Positions 1,589-42,075 of a stretch of DNA of 45,880 bases are shown here, piece by piece. Origin of the DNA: a virus. Both the position numbers and the translations under genes were made by a program. The DNA lies in IMG/VR virus record IMGVR_UViG_3300025286_000026, positions 1 through 45,880 of that record. The stretch is one strand, 5' to 3'. Each line of letters starts with the position of its first letter. Positions within the stretch are counted from its first letter, which is position 1. The notes beneath the pieces are model-generated. The model worked only from the letters and a program-made list of their open reading frames with translations, searched no databases and was not told the origin of the DNA.

Positions 1589-2986
1589 TCATCCCATTAT
1601 GTTCTTCCAGCCTTCACCATGTTCCACATAATACCACCCTTCACCGAATGATACCGCGTTACATGCCAGTGCTAGTGCGTCTGCATGGTCGTCTTTTGTT
1701 CCTTCATCTACTTTTACTTTTAATTTTCCCTCCTCTGTATAGGCTCTCTTTAAATAGGATAGCTGGTAAAGCACTCTCTTGTCGTCCTGCGGTACCACTA
1801 TCTTCTTGTTCTCGAATATCATACGGATATTACTGTACATTTTTGATTTTTCTGATAGCGAAAAGGTGATTCCTCTGACAGGATATTCTCTTTTCCTTGC
1901 AAGGTCCACAACACCACCACCCAGGCCTGTCTCGTCTATGAAGATTGTCTCGAACGGGTACTTTTGCATCAATTCACCCACCCTTCCGACTATATCTACA
2001 AGGTTGGATTGTGACTCTTTCTCATATTCTATCACCCTTATCTTGTTGTCCTCGTCCACCTCTATTATCATGAATACTGTCTCATCTCTTCCACTTCTTG
2101 CAACGTCAAGACCCATATAATATCTTGTAGCACCCATTGGTTTCCAGGTCCTGTTATGTGAGGCCATCAACAAGTCGAATGGTATAAGCGAGTCACCTAT
2201 GTCTAGGAACTCTCCCTCTACCTCTTGTGTATATTCCTCTTGTGATAATGATTTTACCTGTTCTAAGAATAATGGATCGTTTGCAATCTTTGGGTTGTCT
2301 ACAGATCTAACGTGGAATTCTTTCCATAACCCATCCGGGTTCTTGGGCCGGGACTGTTGACTCGACTCATAGAAATAACCCTGCTTGCCAAATGGTGTCG
2401 ACGTCAACCATACATTCGCTTCCGTAGCCATACCTGATGGCAGGAATGCAACCATGATACTTCTCTTAATGAAAGCACATTCGTCCGCAATGATTACGTG
2501 TGGGGAGTAACCTCTCAATGTCACACCAGTCTCACCTGTTGCTCTTACATATATTTTAGTCATACCTTTTTTATTCAACCACTGTATCCACATCTCTGTC
2601 TGGGTGCTTCTTACTACATATTTTGATAGAAAGTCACTGTTCTTTACCAGTGTTCTAATCCTGTCGAACATGATACTTGCCTGGTTCTGTGTAGGTGCAG
2701 CGATAATAATGACGGCCTCTTTCTTTTCTCTTGCGTCCTTGCTCAAAATGGGGGCAAAGAAACTCCAATGTATTGCCTTAACTGCAGTTGTCATTGTCTT
2801 ACCTGCCTGTCTGCCCGACCTATATATTATGAATCTCTCTGTACTGTCTGCATATTCTGCATTATATTTGAATAGTTTGTGACCCAACATTACCTCACTG
2901 AATTTACTTGGACTCTTAGCCATATCGGCTACCATAGTCATTAGTTTCTCACGTTTTGCAGTTATATCCTTTGAAGGTTTAGGCAT
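1589..2986 (-). CDS. terL: Terminase large subunit (packaging ATPase and nuclease)
   Basis: A full-length 465-residue TerL. The ATPase has Walker A SGRQAGKT (residues 57-64), Walker B VIIADE (164-169) and the coupling motif TSTP (195-198). The RNase H-like nuclease has acidic residues in MGLDVAR (Asp294), IDETG (Asp351) and KDDHADA (Asp432/433/436). It would pump DNA into the prohead and cut the concatemer. The ATG overlaps the stop of the upstream oxygenase-like gene (TAATG), so it is translated within the operon that also holds the putative small subunit. Only two cysteines are present, in contrast to the virion proteins. It lies about 35 kb from the portal gene, an unusual separation. Confidence 0.97.
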   Translation of the reverse strand: MPKPSKDITAKREKLMTMVADMAKSPSKFSEVMLGHKLFKYNAEYADSTERFIIYRSGRQAGKTMTTAVKAIHWSFFAPILSKDAREKKEAVIIIAAPTQNQASIMFDRIRTLVKNSDFLSKYVVRSTQTEMWIQWLNKKGMTKIYVRATGETGVTLRGYSPHVIIADECAFIKRSIMVAFLPSGMATEANVWLTSTPFGKQGYFYESSQQSRPKNPDGLWKEFHVRSVDNPKIANDPLFLEQVKSLSQEEYTQEVEGEFLDIGDSLIPFDLLMASHNRTWKPMGATRYYMGLDVARSGRDETVFMIIEVDEDNKIRVIEYEKESQSNLVDIVGRVGELMQKYPFETIFIDETGLGGGVVDLARKREYPVRGITFSLSEKSKMYSNIRMIFENKKIVVPQDDKRVLYQLSYLKRAYTEEGKLKVKVDEGTKDDHADALALACNAVSFGEGWYYVEHGEGWKNIMG

Positions 2987-3486
2987 TATACTTTCATATC
3001 CTTATCAAGTCTTATACCTATAACAAATACCTTTTTATTCTTTGATTCCATTCCCAAATGATTAAAAGTTGCACTGAATACTATCATTTTCCCCTTCTTA
3101 GGAGACACTGATACTGTTACATCTCTTTTATCATTCAATGAAAATAATGTCACTCCTTCTGCATCTGTCAAATATAATACAACACCTAATTCCTCATTAT
3201 GATCATGTCTATGCCATCCAAGACTACCTGAATCGCCATATTTTATATAATGTACATGAAACGGTGTTGATATTAGACCAATATCATTGTTTAAATTTTT
3301 AACTATATCATCTATTATTTTATCTATTCTTTCATCTACATGTAATATATTAGGTGTCTGATATGCATTGTCAAGATAAGTATTATCACTGACATCAGGC
3401 AAATTTAATGAATCCAAATAACCTGTAAGTTTATCAACCGTATCCAAACTCATTTCATATTCTTTAAATGCAGGGATATTGATCAT
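2986..3486 (-). CDS. 2OG-Fe(II) oxygenase- or cupin-like protein
   Basis: A 166-residue protein with the double-stranded beta-helix pattern of 2-oxoglutarate/Fe(II) oxygenases. A histidine cluster WHRHDHNE (His92, His94, His96, Glu98) supplies the first metal ligands, His143 in FNHLG is the distal ligand, and Arg159 in IGIRL could bind 2-oxoglutarate. The metal site is less canonical than in its four neighbours (HxH/HxE rather than HxD), so a cupin is the alternative. The start ATG overlaps the stop of the gene before it (TAATG) and has an AAAGGAG Shine-Dalgarno. It sits between the two putative terminase genes. The substrate is unknown; a virion protein or DNA are the obvious options. Confidence 0.65.
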   Translation of the reverse strand: MINIPAFKEYEMSLDTVDKLTGYLDSLNLPDVSDNTYLDNAYQTPNILHVDERIDKIIDDIVKNLNNDIGLISTPFHVHYIKYGDSGSLGWHRHDHNEELGVVLYLTDAEGVTLFSLNDKRDVTVSVSPKKGKMIVFSATFNHLGMESKNKKVFVIGIRLDKDMKV

Positions 3487-6395: not shown

Positions 6396-7010
6396 TTAAC
6401 GATGTCTGAAACCTATATGACCGTTGATAACAACCCTACCGTGAAACAATAAATCTGAATCAACGTTAATAGGATTAACCTTGTGTAATAAATGTGATGA
6501 GAATATTATCAATTGATTGTCTTGAGGTTTGATCTTTATGTCCTTGTTATTGTGTTTAATTATTAGTTCTCCCCCTGTCCACATTCTTGGTTTGACTATA
6601 TCCAATGGAAGTATGAACGACAACAGTCTTGTTCCTGAAACATTGTCCTGATGCCATGGATATGTTCCGCCTTTCGGATATACTGTTATCCTTGTCTCGT
6701 GATTGTTTGTAACACCTATGGTTTGGAATGGATATGACTGTTGTTTACTATATATAGACAGGGCCTTTTTGTTAAACAGTTTGGTATCATTTAATGCAAG
6801 TATTGTAGAATCAGTTCTATTGTTTAAGTAAACGTCATCCAGATACATTCTTTTATAATATGAATCTTTTACTCCGTATTTTTCATTCATTGGTTTGTCG
6901 ACTATGTTATCTCTTTCACCCACTATAGCATCTTTTATTATTTTTAATTCTGGTTTGGTGTAAAAATTGTCTATCAGTAGTATATCATTGTTTATTTTTA
7001 CTGGTTTCAT
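6396..7010 (-). CDS. 2OG-Fe(II) oxygenase
   Basis: A 204-residue enzyme. The Fe(II) site is WHQDN (His120, Asp122) and LLHKVNP (His176); Arg192 in HGRVVINGH would bind 2-oxoglutarate. YPKGGTYPWH and WTGGELII match the core strands of the prolyl-hydroxylase-like branch. It starts in an ATGA overlap with the preceding oxygenase gene, and is the last of three consecutive oxygenase genes read as one unit. The three share little sequence beyond the motifs, so they are old duplicates or separate acquisitions, probably with different substrates. Confidence 0.85.
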   Translation of the reverse strand: MKPVKINNDILLIDNFYTKPELKIIKDAIVGERDNIVDKPMNEKYGVKDSYYKRMYLDDVYLNNRTDSTILALNDTKLFNKKALSIYSKQQSYPFQTIGVTNNHETRITVYPKGGTYPWHQDNVSGTRLLSFILPLDIVKPRMWTGGELIIKHNNKDIKIKPQDNQLIIFSSHLLHKVNPINVDSDLLFHGRVVINGHIGFRHR

Positions 7011-7525
7011 CTCTTAATATCATCCTTTGTCCATGCGCAAGGACCATATTTGTCAACATAATGTAAGAACACTTGTGCATGTTTTTCACCTTCAAATTTT
7101 GGACGCCAGTGATGTATCTCACATCCCCTATAAATAAGAGCGTCACCTGGATTAAGTTTTATCTCTACCGGATTCTCATCTCTATCCAATACCCATATAC
7201 TCCATGGATCTCCTCCTAGGTCTAATGTCATTGATACTTCACATGCTGGTCTATCTCTATGTATTTTTAATATGTCCCCCCGTTTATATACTCTTGCATA
7301 TGCATATGTCTTGAACAATTCCAGTCCGGAATGATCTTCTATTACTGGTAACATTTCTATATGTTTCTTTTCTGCTATTTCTGGATTATAAAATGAAGGT
7401 GTACCTGATATTTCAGCAGTGAGAACACCGTCAGTTCTATTGCTTAGATGTTCATTTATTTCATATGCCTCTTCTTCTGATATGACATTCCTAATTATGT
7501 CGTAACCTTTTTTATAGAAGGTCAT
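7007..7525 (-). CDS. 2OG-Fe(II) oxygenase
   Basis: A protein of 172 residues counted from the ATG at 7525, which overlaps the preceding stop (ATGA); a TTG at 7540 is a weaker alternative. The metal ligands are HRD (His89, Asp91) and EIHHW (His138/139). LNPGDALIYRG is the typical strand before the distal histidine, and VFLHYV follows it. The arginine expected to bind 2-oxoglutarate is not obvious, so either the cosubstrate site varies or the enzyme is atypical. Middle gene of the three-oxygenase run. Confidence 0.8.
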   Translation of the reverse strand: MTFYKKGYDIIRNVISEEEAYEINEHLSNRTDGVLTAEISGTPSFYNPEIAEKKHIEMLPVIEDHSGLELFKTYAYARVYKRGDILKIHRDRPACEVSMTLDLGGDPWSIWVLDRDENPVEIKLNPGDALIYRGCEIHHWRPKFEGEKHAQVFLHYVDKYGPCAWTKDDIKR

Positions 7526-8175
7526 TTTATACCTATCCAACAGTTCATTGAGAATCGTCCTTTGCTAAATGTTTTTGGTGATTTTGTATCTCTTACCATA
7601 TGTGCTGTTTTTGCTCCGAATATTACTGCCATATTATTTTCTGGGGTTATTATAAGTGGTTTCTCTCTCTTGTCCATTGGTTGTCCTTTATATATTGGTG
7701 ATTTTGTAAATAGTATTTCCCCTCCTTTGTATTTCTTTGGCTCCTCGTTGAAATAATATACCATGGTTACCTGTCTTTTATTGTTATCGAATGCATCTAT
7801 ATGATATTTATAGAGTTGTCCTTCGTCTCCGTATCTGCTTACCTGTGTCTCGTGATAGTTGGACTGACTGAATTTGTTTATTGGGTATGATGAACTTCCA
7901 ATTGGTTCTATAAACTCAGGAGTTGAAAACAAAACGTCCAGTTTAGATAACAGTTTTGATTTACTTCTATCATTGTTATATAATGAATCATAGAATGCAA
8001 CCTTATTGTTTCTGAAATCAGTTTTTTTTCCTTCAGAAACTCCACCTATTGAAGCCTCAACAAACATTTTTTTATTTTTAACTGCCTCTGCAAATATTTC
8101 TTTGTTTTCTTTCTTTGTAAAAATATCTCTTATTATAATTAAAGGTACTGGTTCGTAAATGAATTCAAATTTCAT
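7522..8175 (-). CDS. 2OG-Fe(II) oxygenase (prolyl-4-hydroxylase-like)
   Basis: A 217-residue enzyme with the clearest prolyl-hydroxylase pattern of the set: YKYHIDAFD (His125, Asp127), TAHMVRD (His192) and GRFSMNCWIG (Arg207). VTMVYYFNEE and YKGGEILF are core strands. It is the first of three chained oxygenase genes and follows the glycine-rich adhesin and a coiled-coil gene on the same strand. That order raises the possibility that it hydroxylates a fibre protein (the adhesin contains SPPGPTPG), which is inference. No strong TATA element precedes it. Confidence 0.85.
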   Translation of the reverse strand: MKFEFIYEPVPLIIIRDIFTKKENKEIFAEAVKNKKMFVEASIGGVSEGKKTDFRNNKVAFYDSLYNNDRSKSKLLSKLDVLFSTPEFIEPIGSSSYPINKFSQSNYHETQVSRYGDEGQLYKYHIDAFDNNKRQVTMVYYFNEEPKKYKGGEILFTKSPIYKGQPMDKREKPLIITPENNMAVIFGAKTAHMVRDTKSPKTFSKGRFSMNCWIGIK

Positions 8176-11370: not shown

Positions 11371-14097
11371 TTACGTGGCTCTGGTGTATCCAGAACTTGT
11401 GAATCCTGAACATGTAAATCCTCCAACAGGTGAACATGTACCATATATGCCTCCATCACCATACGAGTTTACGTTATATATTGCTGGTGCTACTACTGTT
11501 ATTGTTATTGAATCTAATAGACACATTGTCTCTACATATACTGTTCCACATAGGGCTCCCTCGATTATATTGAACGAGTCTGAAATACACATGATTTCCT
11601 CCAACTGCTCGGAACACCTGATATCCTTGATCTCCGTGAGTGCAGACTCCAGGTCGTGCAGTTTCTCGATGATTTGTTTCTCATATTCAAGGTCATCGAA
11701 CTTGAACTCACCTAACAATATATTTGTAGTCATATCAGGATATCTCCATGTCAGTGATTTTATAACAAATGAACCATCTATGCTTTTAATATCATTTATT
11801 ACCCTTACAACATCTCCCTCGTTGATTGAGTTTTTCATTACACCCAACTCAAGTTTTAATGATGATCTGATCTCCTTGAATCTGTTCAAATAACCGTTGA
11901 TAAATCTAATACCGTCGTTTCTTGTCTTGATCCAAGGCATTACAAGTCTCTTGCTGTGTCTGCCGTACAGATCTATGCTTGACTGTTTCTCACCCCTGAT
12001 AAGCAATGGTATCTCATACTGATAATCTATCTGTATTGCCTGACCGCATGTTGGAGCAACATCAAATATTATAGTCTTGTTTATGACACATGTTTCGTAA
12101 TCTTCCTCTGCCGTCTGTGCTGTACCACCCACTGTAACACTGCTGGATATGGCACCATGTTGTAATGTGACTTGTGTGCTTGACCCGTCACCTGTAAAAC
12201 ATTCAACAGTACTGTATTTTTTAGATTCTCCTATAACCACTAAATCATTAACTATCTCTGTATCGTCGTTAACACATTCAAAATTCCTTGAATTTACACC
12301 GTGAGTGAATACAAAACATGTTGCAGCAAATGCATTGTCATGTAGGTGGAACTGATTCAATGCGTCGGTAAAGAACGTTCTTCCTATCAACTGTGTAATG
12401 TCTCTTATAATATCTATGAGTTTTCCGTCAGCGTTGAATCTTGACAATGTAATACCACTACATGTGCCGTGCATATGTGGTATAAGACATGTATTATTTC
12501 TAATTAAATCATCTATTATAAATTCAGGGCTTCTGCAGTTATATTGTTGTGCCTTTACCTCTGTCTCACCTAGACTCTTTCCGAATGACTGTGCTATTAC
12601 TTGTTTTTTATTTATTTCTTTTTCTATCTTGGTAGCGAATCCCCCGAACTTCATCAACGAAGTTGCAACAACTTCAGAGTATATCCTTGTTGCCTGTATT
12701 GCTCCTATGTCTTTACTGTACATTCTTAACACATTTATGTCACCTGCAAAATATGCGGTTTTGTTGTGGTTTGTGCCTATGAAAAGTGCAGGGCTGGCCA
12801 ACGTCAAGTTTGACGCAACAGTTGCAGTGTTCTTTTCCACATTATCTACCTCCAGATGAACCACATTGCTTGAGTCCCTGTATACCCTGATGAAGTGCCA
12901 TGCATCATCGTTGTATGATGTGCCACATGTCTTTATATTGTTACCATCTATCTCTGCAACCACGTCCCCTGTGGCCAACCTGTTAACTGACAAGGCAAAA
13001 CCGTTACCTGATAAATTACGTCTAGCGTATACATATCCCAATGAACAGGTGCTCCATTTTGCCCATACCTGTATGTCAAACTGTGCTGCGAAATCAAAAT
13101 CTGTTGTATATGGTATCTCCTGATATGAATCAGTACCGTTAAATGTCATTGAGTTTCCAAACTTGCCAGTCCCTTCTGTTATCACACCTCTTAGATATAT
13201 TGCTCTTATTTCCTCCGCTGGTAATTCTTTAGATACCCATATGTTGCCGTCATCCATTGACCCTGCATATTTTGATGAGCCGTCAGCATATGCTCCATAT
13301 GTCACCAATGAACAATTTAACGTGCATGATGTAAGGTTGTCTGTTATTATTCCCTTTGTATCTGCAACACCGTTTATGTATATGTCAACTGCGTTTCCTC
13401 CACATCCAGGTATTCCATTATATACAACTGTGACATGATTCCATACACATGTATTGACTGGAAAATCTCCCCTTATATGAAGTTCATTTGTAGTGGCAGT
13501 ATTTGTTATCCTAAACTCAACCTGTCCGCATGCATTTAATCCCATCTCCCATCCCTTGTCTGTGGTTGCCGTGGCCTTTTTGGATATCAACGGGACACTT
13601 ACATCGCTTGTCTTGATCCATGCCGACATTGACATGTTTGTGGTCTGATCAACATCATATATACATTCACATGTTATTGATATATAGTCGCATGTACCGT
13701 CAAATACCATTCCCTTCGCACTTACTTTTCCTGGGGCAACACATCCTATTGCACCGTTGTCAATTGCTATTGACTCCCTTATACCCTTGTTTGATGCCGT
13801 ACAAGTTGATGTACAATATACAAGATTTACACATATTCGTGGATATGATATTGCGCCATATGCATTGTTACAAAGTCCCGACTCGTCCCTTACATTTCCC
13901 TGGAACATATACGCTCCAACCATACAGTCAAGACTTACGGCATCCTGTATTATTTTTACTTTGTCGTTTATATCTATGGCAGCACATGCAGGCAATATGA
14001 CCTTTGACTGGTCTATTGCTCTCTCTCCTTCCCTTGTTACATGTGTCTCAAGAACTTTTACAGGGGAGTTACAAACTAATACCTTTACTCTTACCAC
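11371..14097 (-). CDS. Tail hub/tip protein with two LamG-like domains
   Basis: A 908-residue protein. Two concanavalin-A/LamG-like beta-sandwiches are visible: residues about 120-300 (NMSMSAWIKTSD, then VWNHVTVVYNG and VDIYINGV) and about 315-480 (FDIQVWAKW, then WHFIRVYRDS and LHLEV-like strands). The second half (about 510-830) resembles siphovirus tail-hub proteins, with RGEKQSSIDLYGRHSK and INEGDVVRVIND, followed by a short coiled coil and a glycine-rich end. LamG folds bind sugars, so it may contact the host surface. It contains about 32 cysteines (3.5%). It starts with GTG behind a GGTGAGG Shine-Dalgarno in an overlap with the upstream gene. Confidence 0.7.
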   Translation of the reverse strand: MVRVKVLVCNSPVKVLETHVTREGERAIDQSKVILPACAAIDINDKVKIIQDAVSLDCMVGAYMFQGNVRDESGLCNNAYGAISYPRICVNLVYCTSTCTASNKGIRESIAIDNGAIGCVAPGKVSAKGMVFDGTCDYISITCECIYDVDQTTNMSMSAWIKTSDVSVPLISKKATATTDKGWEMGLNACGQVEFRITNTATTNELHIRGDFPVNTCVWNHVTVVYNGIPGCGGNAVDIYINGVADTKGIITDNLTSCTLNCSLVTYGAYADGSSKYAGSMDDGNIWVSKELPAEEIRAIYLRGVITEGTGKFGNSMTFNGTDSYQEIPYTTDFDFAAQFDIQVWAKWSTCSLGYVYARRNLSGNGFALSVNRLATGDVVAEIDGNNIKTCGTSYNDDAWHFIRVYRDSSNVVHLEVDNVEKNTATVASNLTLASPALFIGTNHNKTAYFAGDINVLRMYSKDIGAIQATRIYSEVVATSLMKFGGFATKIEKEINKKQVIAQSFGKSLGETEVKAQQYNCRSPEFIIDDLIRNNTCLIPHMHGTCSGITLSRFNADGKLIDIIRDITQLIGRTFFTDALNQFHLHDNAFAATCFVFTHGVNSRNFECVNDDTEIVNDLVVIGESKKYSTVECFTGDGSSTQVTLQHGAISSSVTVGGTAQTAEEDYETCVINKTIIFDVAPTCGQAIQIDYQYEIPLLIRGEKQSSIDLYGRHSKRLVMPWIKTRNDGIRFINGYLNRFKEIRSSLKLELGVMKNSINEGDVVRVINDIKSIDGSFVIKSLTWRYPDMTTNILLGEFKFDDLEYEKQIIEKLHDLESALTEIKDIRCSEQLEEIMCISDSFNIIEGALCGTVYVETMCLLDSITITVVAPAIYNVNSYGDGGIYGTCSPVGGFTCSGFTSSGYTRAT

Positions 14098-14555
14098 TAT
14101 GCCTCACCTGCGACGACATCTCCTACTATGAATTCAATCCGTCCGTTATATAAGTTGGGTGCGGATGCATTTTTGGCAAATGTCATTTTTCTTATGGTAC
14201 CATTTTTGGTTATACCGTCAACTGATATGGAATATGCATCCTGTATGCTCTGTGGCTGAAAACAATTTATAAGGTATTTTATTTGTTCTGATGGTGTCTT
14301 TGTGGAAGGAGTTGCCTCTGATGATATGTTACATGTTTCTTCAGTGATTGTCCATCCAAGATTTATTCCCAATGTGTTGCCTTCTGCCTTTACAAGTATT
14401 GCATTGTCTGCATTACATTCTGGTAATGGAAAATCCCCTACAGGTGTTGCCAATTCAAAATCCAATGTCTCGAAATTTCTTATTGTTAATGTTGTACATG
14501 CTGGTACGGGATCACCACAGTCACCACTAAGTTTTGTAAACACTACATCTGACAT
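14097..14555 (-). CDS. Putative distal tail protein
   Basis: A 152-residue beta-rich protein placed exactly between the tape measure and the hub, where siphoviruses encode the distal tail protein that caps the tube. A segment TKTPSEQIKYLINCFQP and later strand-rich region (ISVDGITKNGTIRKMTF) fit but are not diagnostic. It overlaps both neighbours by single codons, so the three are translated together. Five cysteines lie in the first 110 residues. Confidence 0.5.
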   Translation of the reverse strand: MSDVVFTKLSGDCGDPVPACTTLTIRNFETLDFELATPVGDFPLPECNADNAILVKAEGNTLGINLGWTITEETCNISSEATPSTKTPSEQIKYLINCFQPQSIQDAYSISVDGITKNGTIRKMTFAKNASAPNLYNGRIEFIVGDVVAGEA

Positions 14556-16564
14556 TATACTATACCTGCCCTTGATGTTGATTCTTTAAGCATTTTTAAT
14601 ATTGCAGGTTTAAGCTGTCTCTCTATGTCTCCTACATTGCTTGCGTTAATTGTAATGTTAAAAGTGTTCCCTCCGCCTGGACTTGTTCCTACACCTGGAG
14701 TAACTGTTTCAGGACCTTTCTCTCCCATAAGATATCCTCTACCAGAGTTTTGTCCTACACCGAATATTGGCTCGTTAATTATTCCTCCCTTTGCCATTTT
14801 CATTATTGATAATATACTCTTTCCCCTGTACTGTTCACCCTTTGCACGCATCATGTTAAGGTGACTGTAAGATCTAGGATCCAGTCCCTGTGTCACTGAT
14901 GTTCCATCACCAAATGTAATTCTATATCTACTACTTGCTGATGCTCCACCACCTGTTACAAGTCCACCACCAAATCTACTCATTGCCTGGCTAGCTATCT
15001 TTGCTGATCTTGTCCTACTACCATCAGCTTTTCTATATCTTGATATTGTTCTGAGATTAGATCTAATCCAACTACTTGCACCTTCGAATGTTTTTGATAT
15101 ATCATGTATATGTGATTCTGCATTTTTTGCATATATAGGTGTTGATGATAGAGTGTTTTCTGATTGTCCAAATGCCTTGTCAATTTTTCCAATATTCATA
15201 AATGAATTCCATGCATTGGTGGCAGCACCTGCGGCACCTTCTGATATCTGTACCCACCAATCATTTGCTACTTCTGCAGCTTCATTTACCTTTTCCATTG
15301 TATCACCTAATATGTCTGACCCAACATCGGGTTGAGTTGGTCCTATGAATTCAGGGTCTGTTTCTGCTACGGCTTCTGGTATTACTGATCCTCCAAATAA
15401 TCCTCCTATGATAGGTAAACCCTTTAACATGTCCCATACCCCAGAAAATCCATCTGAAATGCCTTTCCACATACCTTCAAAGAAACCGATAAATCCTTTC
15501 CATGCATCATCAAATGATTTTTGGAAATCCCTGATAGCTTTACCTGAAAATACATCTGCTATGAACTGTGGAATTGTATTCTCCCAGAAATTATTCCATG
15601 CTTCTACAAATGGTTTCACTGCTTCAGATATTTGAGCCCATGCTACATTTATATCGGTTACCAGTTTTTGTATATCTGCAACAGGTATATTAAACATCTT
15701 ACCTAATGTTTTTAAAGCTGATATTATTAAGTCTTTAAGGCCATTCCAAGGATCACTCATGAATTCTGCTAATGATTCTCCCCATGCTTGCCATGTTGGC
15801 AAATGTTCGGCCCACATCTTATACCATCCTACTGACCACTTTACAAAGTTAATCATCATGGGTCTGAAAATCATACCAAGCATGTCTCCTATAGGTCTAA
15901 GTGTAAACATAATACCTAAATTCATAAGTTTTAACATCACCTTCATCATTGGTGATGAGTCAATAATCATTTTTCCAAGTCCTGCCATTCCTGCTGCACC
16001 TGCTGCAACACCTGCTATTTTTACTGCTCTTGGAATTCTATTTTCTTTTTGTAACTTTCCCAATTTATTTTTTTCAGTTGCTGCAGTTTTACCACCAAGT
16101 CTTCCAGGTGCTAAGTACATGTTTTGCTCTTCTTCACTCTTTGGTTGTTTCCAGAATCCTTTCTGTGATGCTAATTGACCTATTATGGCTCCTCCTGCAC
16201 CACCCATTCTTCCTCCAAATAACTGACCTATCTGTTGAAATGATTGTGCAGTTTTCTGACCTGATGCCCTTACCATTGCATTTTTATATGCTTCCGCCTT
16301 TATTGCCATCTGTCTTTGATAATCCATATTTCTTAAATGTATACGGTTCTGATGTAATTCTTTTTGTCTCTGTGTTAATCCTTCCTTCTGGAGCTTTTCT
16401 GATGTTTTATTAAACTTTTCTGCCTGTCTTTCAAGATTTGCTGATCTTGAACCGCCTCCAGAACCTCCACTCATTCCTGTTAGGCCTGATTTCTTTAATG
16501 CCTGTGCTATCTTCTTTTCTAATAATGCAGCATCAATATCCAGTTTAAGTTTATAATCAGCCAT
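14555..16564 (-). CDS. Tape measure protein
   Basis: A 669-residue protein. A helical N-terminus with coiled coil (residues 1-110) is followed by a hydrophobic stretch with several membrane-like segments (about 178-260), tryptophan-rich helices (270-400), and a typical tape-measure C-terminus: GGIINEPIFGVG, MGEKGPETVTPG and a final NTFNITINASN strand. It sets tail length and may help DNA cross the membrane. At about 1.5 angstrom per residue the tail would be near 100 nm. It contains no cysteine at all, in sharp contrast to the exposed tail proteins. A TATA-like element lies at 16586-16594. Confidence 0.92.
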   Translation of the reverse strand: MADYKLKLDIDAALLEKKIAQALKKSGLTGMSGGSGGGSRSANLERQAEKFNKTSEKLQKEGLTQRQKELHQNRIHLRNMDYQRQMAIKAEAYKNAMVRASGQKTAQSFQQIGQLFGGRMGGAGGAIIGQLASQKGFWKQPKSEEEQNMYLAPGRLGGKTAATEKNKLGKLQKENRIPRAVKIAGVAAGAAGMAGLGKMIIDSSPMMKVMLKLMNLGIMFTLRPIGDMLGMIFRPMMINFVKWSVGWYKMWAEHLPTWQAWGESLAEFMSDPWNGLKDLIISALKTLGKMFNIPVADIQKLVTDINVAWAQISEAVKPFVEAWNNFWENTIPQFIADVFSGKAIRDFQKSFDDAWKGFIGFFEGMWKGISDGFSGVWDMLKGLPIIGGLFGGSVIPEAVAETDPEFIGPTQPDVGSDILGDTMEKVNEAAEVANDWWVQISEGAAGAATNAWNSFMNIGKIDKAFGQSENTLSSTPIYAKNAESHIHDISKTFEGASSWIRSNLRTISRYRKADGSRTRSAKIASQAMSRFGGGLVTGGGASASSRYRITFGDGTSVTQGLDPRSYSHLNMMRAKGEQYRGKSILSIMKMAKGGIINEPIFGVGQNSGRGYLMGEKGPETVTPGVGTSPGGGNTFNITINASNVGDIERQLKPAILKMLKESTSRAGIV

Positions 16565-16585: not shown

Positions 16586-16594
16586 GATTTAAAG
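16586..16594 (-). promoter_or_regulatory. TATA-like element for the tape measure gene
   Basis: Minus-strand CTTTAAATC centred 26 bases before the ATG at 16564. It begins directly after the stop codon of the frameshifted tail chaperone (16596-16598). Confidence 0.55.
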
Positions 16595-16595
16595 A

Positions 16596-17074
16596 TTACT
16601 TGAACTGTATAGCGTCCTTCATATTTTCGTCAACGTATGCTATCAGTTTTCTGAGGAATGGGACTGTGTGTTTGTCTGTTTCTTGTTTGGTCCATCCGAA
16701 CTTAACTGCGCAGAAGGCGTAGATTCCGATTGTGGCTCGTTCTCCACCTCTGAGCCCATGAAGCTCGTCATCCAGTCCCCTAAAAAATTGACCAATGGGT
16801 AGTCCTCCATGATTTTGTCAAGTATATCATTGATTACCTTGTTTGACACTGAATTAATTGATGCCTCTACCTTGAATGGGAACGGGGCTTTTCTTAATGT
16901 CTTTAATAATATCTGTTTACGAAATATACCTATCTTTACTTTAGGTTTTTGAATATCTGACAAGTCTAATGATGAATTAATAATACCTTCTGTCTCCCCA
17001 AATGAGAGTTCTGTCTCGTATTCTACTTCTTCTTTATTTCCTTTATAGTCTATTTTAAATGACTTTATTACCAT
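16596..17074 (-). CDS. Tail assembly chaperone, long product by -1 frameshift
   Basis: At 16781-16787 the minus strand reads T TTT TTA in the zero frame (codons 97-98, Phe-Leu), a classical X XXY YYZ slippery heptamer. Slipping back one base continues without a stop for 61 codons to a TAA at 16596-16598, giving a 159-residue protein. The new part includes IGIYAFCAVKFGW, then FLRKLIAYVDENM, a helical, protein-like sequence, unlike the polar zero-frame tail it replaces. This copies the gpG/gpGT arrangement of siphoviruses. Downstream GAGC...GCTC can form only a weak stem, so the stimulator is unclear. Confidence 0.8.
16643..17074 (-). CDS. Tail assembly chaperone, short (zero-frame) product
   Basis: A 143-residue protein directly before the tape measure, in the position of the lambda gpG family. 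Residues 1-98 are folded-looking; residues 105-143 are polar and rich in S, N, Q and E and look disordered, as expected where a zero-frame end is tolerated beside a functional -1 frame. It should bind the tape measure and guide tube assembly. The TATA element at 17094-17105 sets the start. Confidence 0.8.
   Translation of the reverse strand: MVIKSFKIDYKGNKEEVEYETELSFGETEGIINSSLDLSDIQKPKVKIGIFRKQILLKTLRKAPFPFKVEASINSVSNKVINDILDKIMEDYPLVNFLGDWMTSFMGSEVENEPQSESTPSAQLSSDGPNKKQTNTQSHSSEN
16781..16787 (-). other. Programmed -1 ribosomal frameshift site
   Basis: Minus-strand TTTTTTA, in phase with the chaperone frame as T TTT TTA. It lies 46 codons before the zero-frame stop and opens the 61-codon extension. 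Confidence 0.8.
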
Positions 17075-17093: not shown

Positions 17094-17105
17094 GATATAT
17101 AAAGG
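17094..17105 (-). promoter_or_regulatory. TATA element for the tail chaperone gene
   Basis: Minus-strand CCTTTATATATC, about 25 bases before the ATG at 17074. Confidence 0.7.
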
Positions 17106-17109
17106 TTGT

Positions 17110-18138
17110 CTATGATGATGCCGGAATTGTGGTTACTTCATTGAGTGCTACTGCTGTACAATCTCTTGCTTGCCAGTTCAATTCTTCAAATATTGGCTCA
17201 TTTGGTTCAATGGATAGGTTGTGGTCATCTAATGCAATGCCAGTAAAAGAGAATGTTATGGATCTTACTCCTGCACCTGCCACTCCGTTACTAAATGTTA
17301 GTTTTAATGTTGGTTGTTCTGATGCTAATGTTTGTGCTCCTGCAGAGTCGTTACATAATACATCTTTCTGTTGTGCATATAGTTTTACTAATTCTGATTT
17401 ATCTACATATGAAGCCTTGAATTTTCCAGTAATTTCGAACAATCTTCTTATTCCAGAAGATGCTGTACTGTCACCTATACCCCATATATGATCTGCATTT
17501 TGTGTAAATGTGACATCTACGTCCTGTACCTCTGCTATTACTGTACAATCTGGAAACTCCAATGAACCATGAGCAAATGTAAATGGTATATGATCACATA
17601 CAGATAATGTTGCTGGACATGCATCCAGTGCTGCTGTTAATGTTTCATTCTTATAATTTGTGTCAAGTGTAACTCTTGCTAGTTCTCCTACGGACGTACT
17701 AATTGATGCGCTGTTAACAATACCGCCAACCATTGTTCTTACAATGTCAGTTCCGCCTGATTCCTGTCCTATTTGTGCTGTGAAAGACTCAATAATTTCA
17801 GTGTCAGATGTTGCATCTATATCCCATGTATGAGTATATAGTGTGGCACATGTAGGTCCTGTTGTTGTTCCAGTTTTAAATCCTATTAATCCTAGGAACC
17901 ATGGGCTTGACAGTACAAAGTCAAGTGACAATGTTCCTCTGGTTTGACCGTATGCATATGTTTTAACTCTAACATCGTTTAATTGTGATAATGGAATTTT
18001 ATTATTTGTAAATGACCAACCGGTGATTTTTTGTTCAAAACCAAAATTTTCTCCTGCTGATTGGATTCCGGTTGCTTCGGTACCAAATGTTGCTTCTCTG
18101 ACCCATTGAATATATGTAAACGCACCAGTAAATACCAT
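17110..18138 (-). CDS. Major tail (tube) protein
   Basis: A 342-residue beta-rich protein located just before the chaperone and tape measure genes, as in siphoviruses. GTLSLDFVLSSPWFLGLIG and repeated short beta-hairpin segments such as GVRSITFSFTGIALDDHN fit a tube protein, and the final region could be an extra Ig-like domain. Six cysteines (1.8%). It would polymerise around the tape measure to form the tail tube. Strong TATA element at 18159-18168, suitable for high expression. Confidence 0.8.
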   Translation of the reverse strand: MVFTGAFTYIQWVREATFGTEATGIQSAGENFGFEQKITGWSFTNNKIPLSQLNDVRVKTYAYGQTRGTLSLDFVLSSPWFLGLIGFKTGTTTGPTCATLYTHTWDIDATSDTEIIESFTAQIGQESGGTDIVRTMVGGIVNSASISTSVGELARVTLDTNYKNETLTAALDACPATLSVCDHIPFTFAHGSLEFPDCTVIAEVQDVDVTFTQNADHIWGIGDSTASSGIRRLFEITGKFKASYVDKSELVKLYAQQKDVLCNDSAGAQTLASEQPTLKLTFSNGVAGAGVRSITFSFTGIALDDHNLSIEPNEPIFEELNWQARDCTAVALNEVTTIPASS

Positions 18139-41294: not shown

Positions 41295-41306
41295 TTATTT
41301 AAATAT
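41295..41306 (-). promoter_or_regulatory. TATA-like element for the 28-residue gene
   Basis: Minus-strand TATTTAAATAA about 25 bases before the ATG at 41273. It overlaps the end of the metalloprotease gene. Confidence 0.45.
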
Positions 41307-42075
41307 ACTTGCAATCATACGCTATGTTCTGCAAAAAATTACAGGATTTTACCACAAGCGGATACTTTACACCTTCCCATCCGTACTCCCCGTACAGCTT
41401 GCCCATCATCTGCAACTCGGGGGACTTTATCTCAACAATATCACCATAGTTAATACGAAGATGAGGATACATGACGGATACCTCTATGCCTTCCATATCT
41501 TTTGGTATGGGTGACGAGTTTATATAATGAAGAAGACCAAATGCGTGTCCAAGCTCGTGAATTATAACCGACTGTAATGTATACTCGTTCACCTGTTCTA
41601 TTGCCCAATCAGCCTTACCATTATTCACTATTAGATGACTTCGATCGACATAGTCCACATACACCTGTATCACCATGAACTTGTGGTTGGAATTTGAAAA
41701 ATTTATCGACGTTGTACCAAGCGCTTCGGATCCGCTAAGACTTTCAAACACTACCATTATCGTACAGTGAGGAAAATCTTCTACGGCCTTATCCTTGTGG
41801 TCTTTCCATGATATTGAATCATGTACTATTATCTCCCAGTTTCCCTTTGGGTATTCCTTGAACAGTGCATCCGACCACGAGCTGACAGACAGCCTGGTCA
41901 AAATTTCATGCGTTCTCGCACTGTCACTAACCTCGGGATCTATGTCAAATATGCATACCTCAGGGGTCTTGTCAAACCTCACCTTTAAAGTCTCAAGGTT
42001 GTCACTGACTCCTGCAGGCAAGACTCCAATTCCGCCAACCAAAAATAAAATTAAAAATAATGCGACTGTTTTCAT
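41299..42075 (-). CDS. Secreted matrixin-like zinc metalloprotease
   Basis: A 258-residue protein. Residues 1-20 are a signal peptide (hydrophobic LFLILFLVGGIGVLPA). The zinc site is HELGHAFGLLH (173-183), that is HExxHxxGxxH with Glu174 as general base, and the Met-turn is SVMYP (Met202), so this is a metzincin close to matrixins. The protein would act outside the cell or in the envelope, cutting surface-layer or other proteins for entry or exit. Similar matrixin-like proteins are, from memory, frequent in ammonia-oxidising archaea, so it may be host-derived. Own TATA element at 42094-42105. Confidence 0.88.
   Translation of the reverse strand: MKTVALFLILFLVGGIGVLPAGVSDNLETLKVRFDKTPEVCIFDIDPEVSDSARTHEILTRLSVSSWSDALFKEYPKGNWEIIVHDSISWKDHKDKAVEDFPHCTIMVVFESLSGSEALGTTSINFSNSNHKFMVIQVYVDYVDRSHLIVNNGKADWAIEQVNEYTLQSVIIHELGHAFGLLHYINSSPIPKDMEGIEVSVMYPHLRINYGDIVEIKSPELQMMGKLYGEYGWEGVKYPLVVKSCNFLQNIAYDCKYI

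Follow-up and report, generated by a model that had tools for sequence, protein, structure and literature searches.

Predicted −1 frameshifting in a tail assembly chaperone gene shared by an archaeal Caudoviricetes virus and its relatives

The window analyzed here, 45,880 nucleotides of IMG/VR virus record IMGVR_UViG_3300025286_000026, carries an open reading frame that overlaps a second, stop-free frame, and the question is whether this locus is expressed as one protein or as two. With a probability of about 0.93, we take it to encode a tail assembly chaperone of an archaeal virus in the class Caudoviricetes, two proteins being made from it via a predicted −1 frameshift. The gene order (tail tube, chaperone ORF, tape measure) matches the position of a tail assembly chaperone (Table 1).

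The codons around the slippery heptamer, AAT TTT TTA GGG, place it in the slip phase X_XXY_YYZ. On re-reading of the sequence, the position and phase reported by the first-pass annotation (T TTT TTA at 16787–16781) were correct, and its stop-free −1 frame of 61 sense codons, followed by TAA at 16598–16596, and its 159-residue predicted fusion were both reproduced. This frame does end just before the likely tape measure promoter, as had been stated: TTTAAA adjoins the −1 stop, and TCTTTAAAT does so in most close relatives. The presence of the heptamer alone proves little, because TTTTTTA is common in this AT-rich stretch (both strands together: 30 copies vs. about 18 expected); the weight rests on its conservation and phase. 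By strand, 23 copies were counted on the plus strand of the whole window and only 7 on the minus strand, which carries most genes.

Table 1. Features of the chaperone locus and its neighbors in the window
Feature	Coordinates	Strand	Remarks
Tail tube protein, neighbor	17110..18138	−	PF18906, E=1.2e-14; 26% to HCTV-1/HCTV-16 tail tube
Archaeal TATA box (TTTATATA)	17096..17103	−	Begins 29 nt before chaperone ATG; conserved in relatives
Zero-frame ORF, G-like product, 143 aa	16643..17074	−	ATG at 17074, stop at 16643
GGAGG, Shine–Dalgarno-like	16804..16808	−	16 nt upstream of heptamer; present in window and 2/9 close relatives
Slippery heptamer T_TTT_TTA (mRNA U_UUU_UUA)	16781..16787	−	In phase, codons 96–98; unchanged in the window and all nine close relatives
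−1 frame extension, T-like domain, 61 codons + TAA	16596..16781	−	Four predicted helices; conserved; selected
TTTAAA, likely TATA box of tape measure gene	16588..16593	−	24–29 nt before its ATG; directly after −1 stop
Tape measure protein, neighbor	14555..16564	−	phrog_1535, E=2e-10

IMG/VR was scanned with the zero-frame protein, the tail tube protein, and the fusion alignment, which yielded about 60 loci. After the removal of copies, 43 distinct sequences covering the site were retained, including the window (L093 was added to an initial 42); one further match, ending before the slip site, was left out. The window and nine close relatives had T_TTT_TTA at codons 96–98, and in 33 more distant relatives C_CCT_TTA stood instead, displaced upstream by four codons (to codon 92 in most). 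The heptamer was intact and in phase in 10/10 and 33/33 sequences of these groups, respectively, and none of the 43 distinct sequences had a stop interrupting the −1 frame, which ran on until its terminal codon or the end of the contig. The first-pass annotation had named a disrupted heptamer, or stops in the −1 frame, among relatives as grounds for giving up frameshifting; neither was seen in any of the 43. All complete fusions of the T_TTT_TTA group were exactly 159 aa long; the zero-frame end in this group lay anywhere between 140 and 144 aa. Read in the −1 frame, the sequence yields a conserved helical domain (YxxxA..FGW.. motif) that distant relatives keep under another heptamer: its product could be aligned between the T_TTT_TTA and C_CCT_TTA groups, and four residues of the extension (Y21, A25, G29, and W30) never varied. 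In one subgroup (L025, L026, L027, L069, and others), TTCCCTTTAGGGAA forms a perfect inverted repeat centered on the C_CCT_TTA slip site.

Within the window group, TTT-TTA at codons 97–98 was invariant in 10/10 sequences, whereas six other F/L columns upstream, invariant in amino acid, all varied in codon; at positions 1–95, only 3 of the 27 amino-acid-invariant columns were also codon-invariant. CCT TTA was present in 32/32 counted sequences of the C_CCT_TTA group, while elsewhere in the same genes CCT accounts for 26% of proline codons and TTA for 40% of leucine codons. Synonymous shuffling of the zero frame left the −1 frame open in 0.3–4.8% of trials per sequence; the real −1 frame was open in 10/10 sequences of the window group, and the +1 frame contained 1–2 stops in each of them. 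Judged by sequence variation, purifying selection acts on the part read only in the −1 frame (raw pN/pS of 0.26). Codons 99–108 of the overlap seem to be held by the zero frame (zero-frame identity of 0.98) and codons 109–138 by the −1 frame, with an amino acid identity of 0.80 in the −1 vs. 0.65 in the zero frame and pN/pS of 0.41 vs. 0.75; these values are raw, the pairs compared are not independent, and for frames that overlap such figures are indicative only. A chance open frame, or a gene damaged by an assembly error or indel, might be suspected where TTTTTTA is so frequent; however, the arrangement is common to 43 distinct sequences from many assemblies, with both frames selected, and we give this explanation practically no credence.

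The −1 frame, being clearly coding, could also represent a separately initiated overlapping gene, with no fusion formed. However, in the window, L006, and L032, there is no ATG, GTG, or TTG in this frame before codon 53 of 61; therefore, independent initiation cannot supply the conserved −1 part. An upstream start in the −1 frame was found in none of the sequences, and a TTG that occurs in some others, at codon 2 or codon 6, was not conserved. Separate initiation, which also leaves the conservation of the heptamer unexplained, is extremely improbable.

Another explanation places the slip in transcription: RNA polymerase would insert an extra U at the six-T stretch, and the altered mRNA would be translated normally. 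The slip site indeed consists of six T followed by A, and for the T6 sites alone this is formally possible. However, the same −1 domain is reached in homologous genes from C_CCT_TTA, a family that cannot rely on polymerase slippage because its longest run is three. The A at position seven never varies and is part of the ribosomal motif; moreover, six T is short for transcriptional slippage. As an account of the locus, polymerase slippage is very unlikely.

Around the slip site of the preferred reading, ribosomal −1 frameshifting, stimulatory elements were sought. A downstream hairpin or pseudoknot was not evident: MFE z-scores scattered around 0, and RNAalifold saw almost no covariation. Upstream pairing with the anti-Shine–Dalgarno (anti-SD) sequence was strong in the C_CCT_TTA group, with a median duplex energy of −9.5 kcal/mol against a background median of −2.4 kcal/mol (5th percentile of −8.4); the best SD-like sequence of this group was a full GGAGGTGAT with its 3′ end 9 nt before the heptamer. 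In single sequences, the SD was mostly no stronger than synonymous recoding yields (median p of 0.14) and so is partly imposed by the amino acids. The median for the T_TTT_TTA group was −2.7 kcal/mol, and GGAGG of the window is probably not essential in its group because only 2/9 close relatives share it. In L093, the tail tube of which is 40% identical to that of the window, GGAGGTAATGAAAGACTA precedes CCCTTTA. The site types are separated by one change in the tail-tube tree, which has weak support (87/57 and 63/18) and is unrooted, the outgroup being too distant. It is rather likely that, within one archaeal virus family, the site shifted by 12 nt and changed its type (SD-associated C_CCU_UUA vs. 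SD-independent U_UUU_UUA), the fusion staying colinear and the four intervening codons switching frame.

The structures of the two halves were predicted separately. AF2 gave the zero-frame protein (39-sequence alignment) a mean pLDDT of 78, high over residues 1–90, with two strands and helices; the predicted fold comprises a beta-beta-alpha domain at about residues 1–106 and a disordered polar tail at about 110–143. The −1 half was predicted as four helices (pLDDT of 76). The first-pass annotation had noticed from the sequence that the −1 extension looks more protein-like than the polar zero-frame end. In a Foldseek search of the zero-frame half against viral models (BFVD), tail assembly chaperones were at ranks 1, 4, 6, and 7; they come from Bacillus phages, ChaoS9, and Haloarcula hispanica tailed virus 2 (HHTV-2, rank 7), and their scores were modest (best E-value of 8e-4, TM of about 0.45). 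For the −1 half, the top-ranking model belonged to an uncultured archaeal virus and is uncharacterised (31% identity, prob 1.00, E of 0.065). Two BFVD proteins of uncultured archaeal virus, A0A1S5Y368 and A0A1S5Y388, ranked first or nearly first by fold for the zero-frame half (22% identity) and the −1 half (31%, prob 1.00); both entries are uncharacterised and stand as separate proteins, whereas here the halves join in the predicted fusion. Neither Pfam nor PHROG gave a chaperone-family match above threshold, and no match was found in PDB by sequence or by fold. Tail assembly chaperones are known for low sequence similarity, so a sequence match to a curated family is not strictly defining; the assignment as a G/GT-type chaperone follows from context, frameshift layout, and fold, not from sequence.

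From the observed layout, conservation, selection on the −1 frame, context, and fold, we infer that slippage itself takes place and that its rate is low: most ribosomes would stop at the zero-frame stop codon, yielding the 143-aa G-like protein, and a minority would slip one base back on U_UUU_UUA, yielding the 159-aa GT-like fusion. The mode would presumably be tandem slippage, with the P-site tRNA-Phe and A-site tRNA-Leu re-pairing on UUU UUU. By analogy with lambda gpG/gpGT, the G-like protein would coat the tape measure protein, and the C-terminal helical domain of the GT-like fusion would recruit tail-tube subunits. A point against slippage here is that U_UUU_UUA was among the weaker shift sites in E. 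coli constructs (PMC5009743). Lambda gpG/gpGT resembles the locus in layout, in the −1 direction of the shift, and in the stoichiometric use proposed for its products (PMC5009743), but lambda is bacterial and has another shift site, while the window combines U_UUU_UUA with archaeal leaderless transcription. The siphovirus gpG/gpGT logic invoked by the first-pass annotation agrees with the gene order, the conserved slip layout, and the chaperone-like fold; the name siphovirus itself is presumptive.

A TATA-like word at −27 to −31 from the chaperone ATG was found in 42/43 upstream regions vs. 11% in shuffles, and no SD was seen before the chaperone start in the upstream regions inspected. Since the TATA box lies at about −29 and no SD precedes the start, the mRNA is probably leaderless. 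In a comparison with 50,697 phage records, the major capsid, portal, and tail tube proteins had matches only in Haloarcula viruses (22–26% identity). MCM and RadA-type recombinase genes were encoded on the contigs of two relatives. These features agree with the archaeal transcription and translation claimed at first reading and support a virus of archaea with capsid, portal, and tail-tube kinship to Druskaviridae. Membership in Druskaviridae was rejected on account of these low identities; the virus is a distant relative.

Regarding hosts, AmoC was encoded on the contigs of two distant relatives, L051 (L184:1483-2061) and L055 (L183), the latter copy with one stop inside the match. The L051 AmoC scored 53 bits vs. 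the bacterial-AmoC cut-off of 319 and presumably reads like archaeal AmoC. Archaeal-type AmoC on these contigs points to ammonia-oxidising archaea as hosts of these distant relatives. MCM showed about 30–42% identity to many archaeal phyla, with no single host phylum favored. Thermosome, PolB, and TFIIB were absent from the 11 records examined, and no proviruses were found in 84,980 genomes searched by tail tube. Druskaviridae were placed within marine archaeal viruses in PLoS Biol 2021 (PMC8651126). The relatives are probably mainly marine and their hosts non-halophilic, the habitat being deduced from the literature and amoC, not from sample records.

Several other genes were recorded. Close to its terminase gene, the window has three 2OG-Fe(II) oxygenase genes belonging to a single family (2986-3486, 6396-7010, and 7522-8175), which together span about 5 kb. 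A 908-aa protein with two Laminin-G/concanavalin-like stretches, likely an adhesin, is encoded at 11371-14097, and a Matrixin-like metallopeptidase (PF00413, borderline) at 41299-42075. In the close relative L098 (16302-19114), MoxR-type AAA ATPase and VWA-domain genes adjoin, as reported for HVTV-1.

The kind of system described here is already known: −1 PRF was predicted earlier in chaperone genes of archaeal viruses, namely HVTV-1 and HCTV-1, -2, and -5 (PMC8211752, PMC5009743), the haloarchaeal siphovirus prediction dating from 2013, with G_GGA_AAC in HCTV-1 (PMC5009743). A 2021 review lists one demonstrated archaeal frameshift case and predictions in haloarchaeal viruses (PMC8211752). In the Haloarcula viruses HCTV-1 and HCTV-16 (Druskaviridae), the chaperone likewise directly follows the homologous tail tube gene, upstream of the tape measure, and its annotation gives one ORF together with a join across a −1 frameshift, like the layout here. 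However, the HCTV-1 heptamer differs from T_TTT_TTA, two genes separate its chaperone and tape measure (none in the window), and the chaperone proteins had no detectable sequence similarity to that of the window: neither sequence nor profile comparison matched the HCTV-1 chaperone halves (hhalign probability of 0.3% and 2.4%). A comparable layout is known in the haloarchaeal siphovirus Hardycor1, where the chaperone pair HrrHc1_110/115 upstream of tmp carries the −1 slippery heptamer G_GGA_AAT (PMC7911831); its host is halophilic and its heptamer is other than that of the window. As far as the literature consulted shows, the chaperone family without sequence kin, the lineage, U_UUU_UUA in an archaeal virus, and the site switch between sister groups are new.

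Verified archaeal frameshifting is almost absent, and the present analysis adds a large, strongly conserved predicted set, probably from marine non-halophilic archaeal viruses, of which one or more carry archaeal-type amoC. It would allow annotators to join the two parts of a gene that otherwise stays divided and without a name. The shift site comes in two versions, only one of which has a conserved SD upstream; both are directly testable as reporters, and the relocation of the site, if true, would be a natural experiment on frameshifting by archaeal ribosomes.
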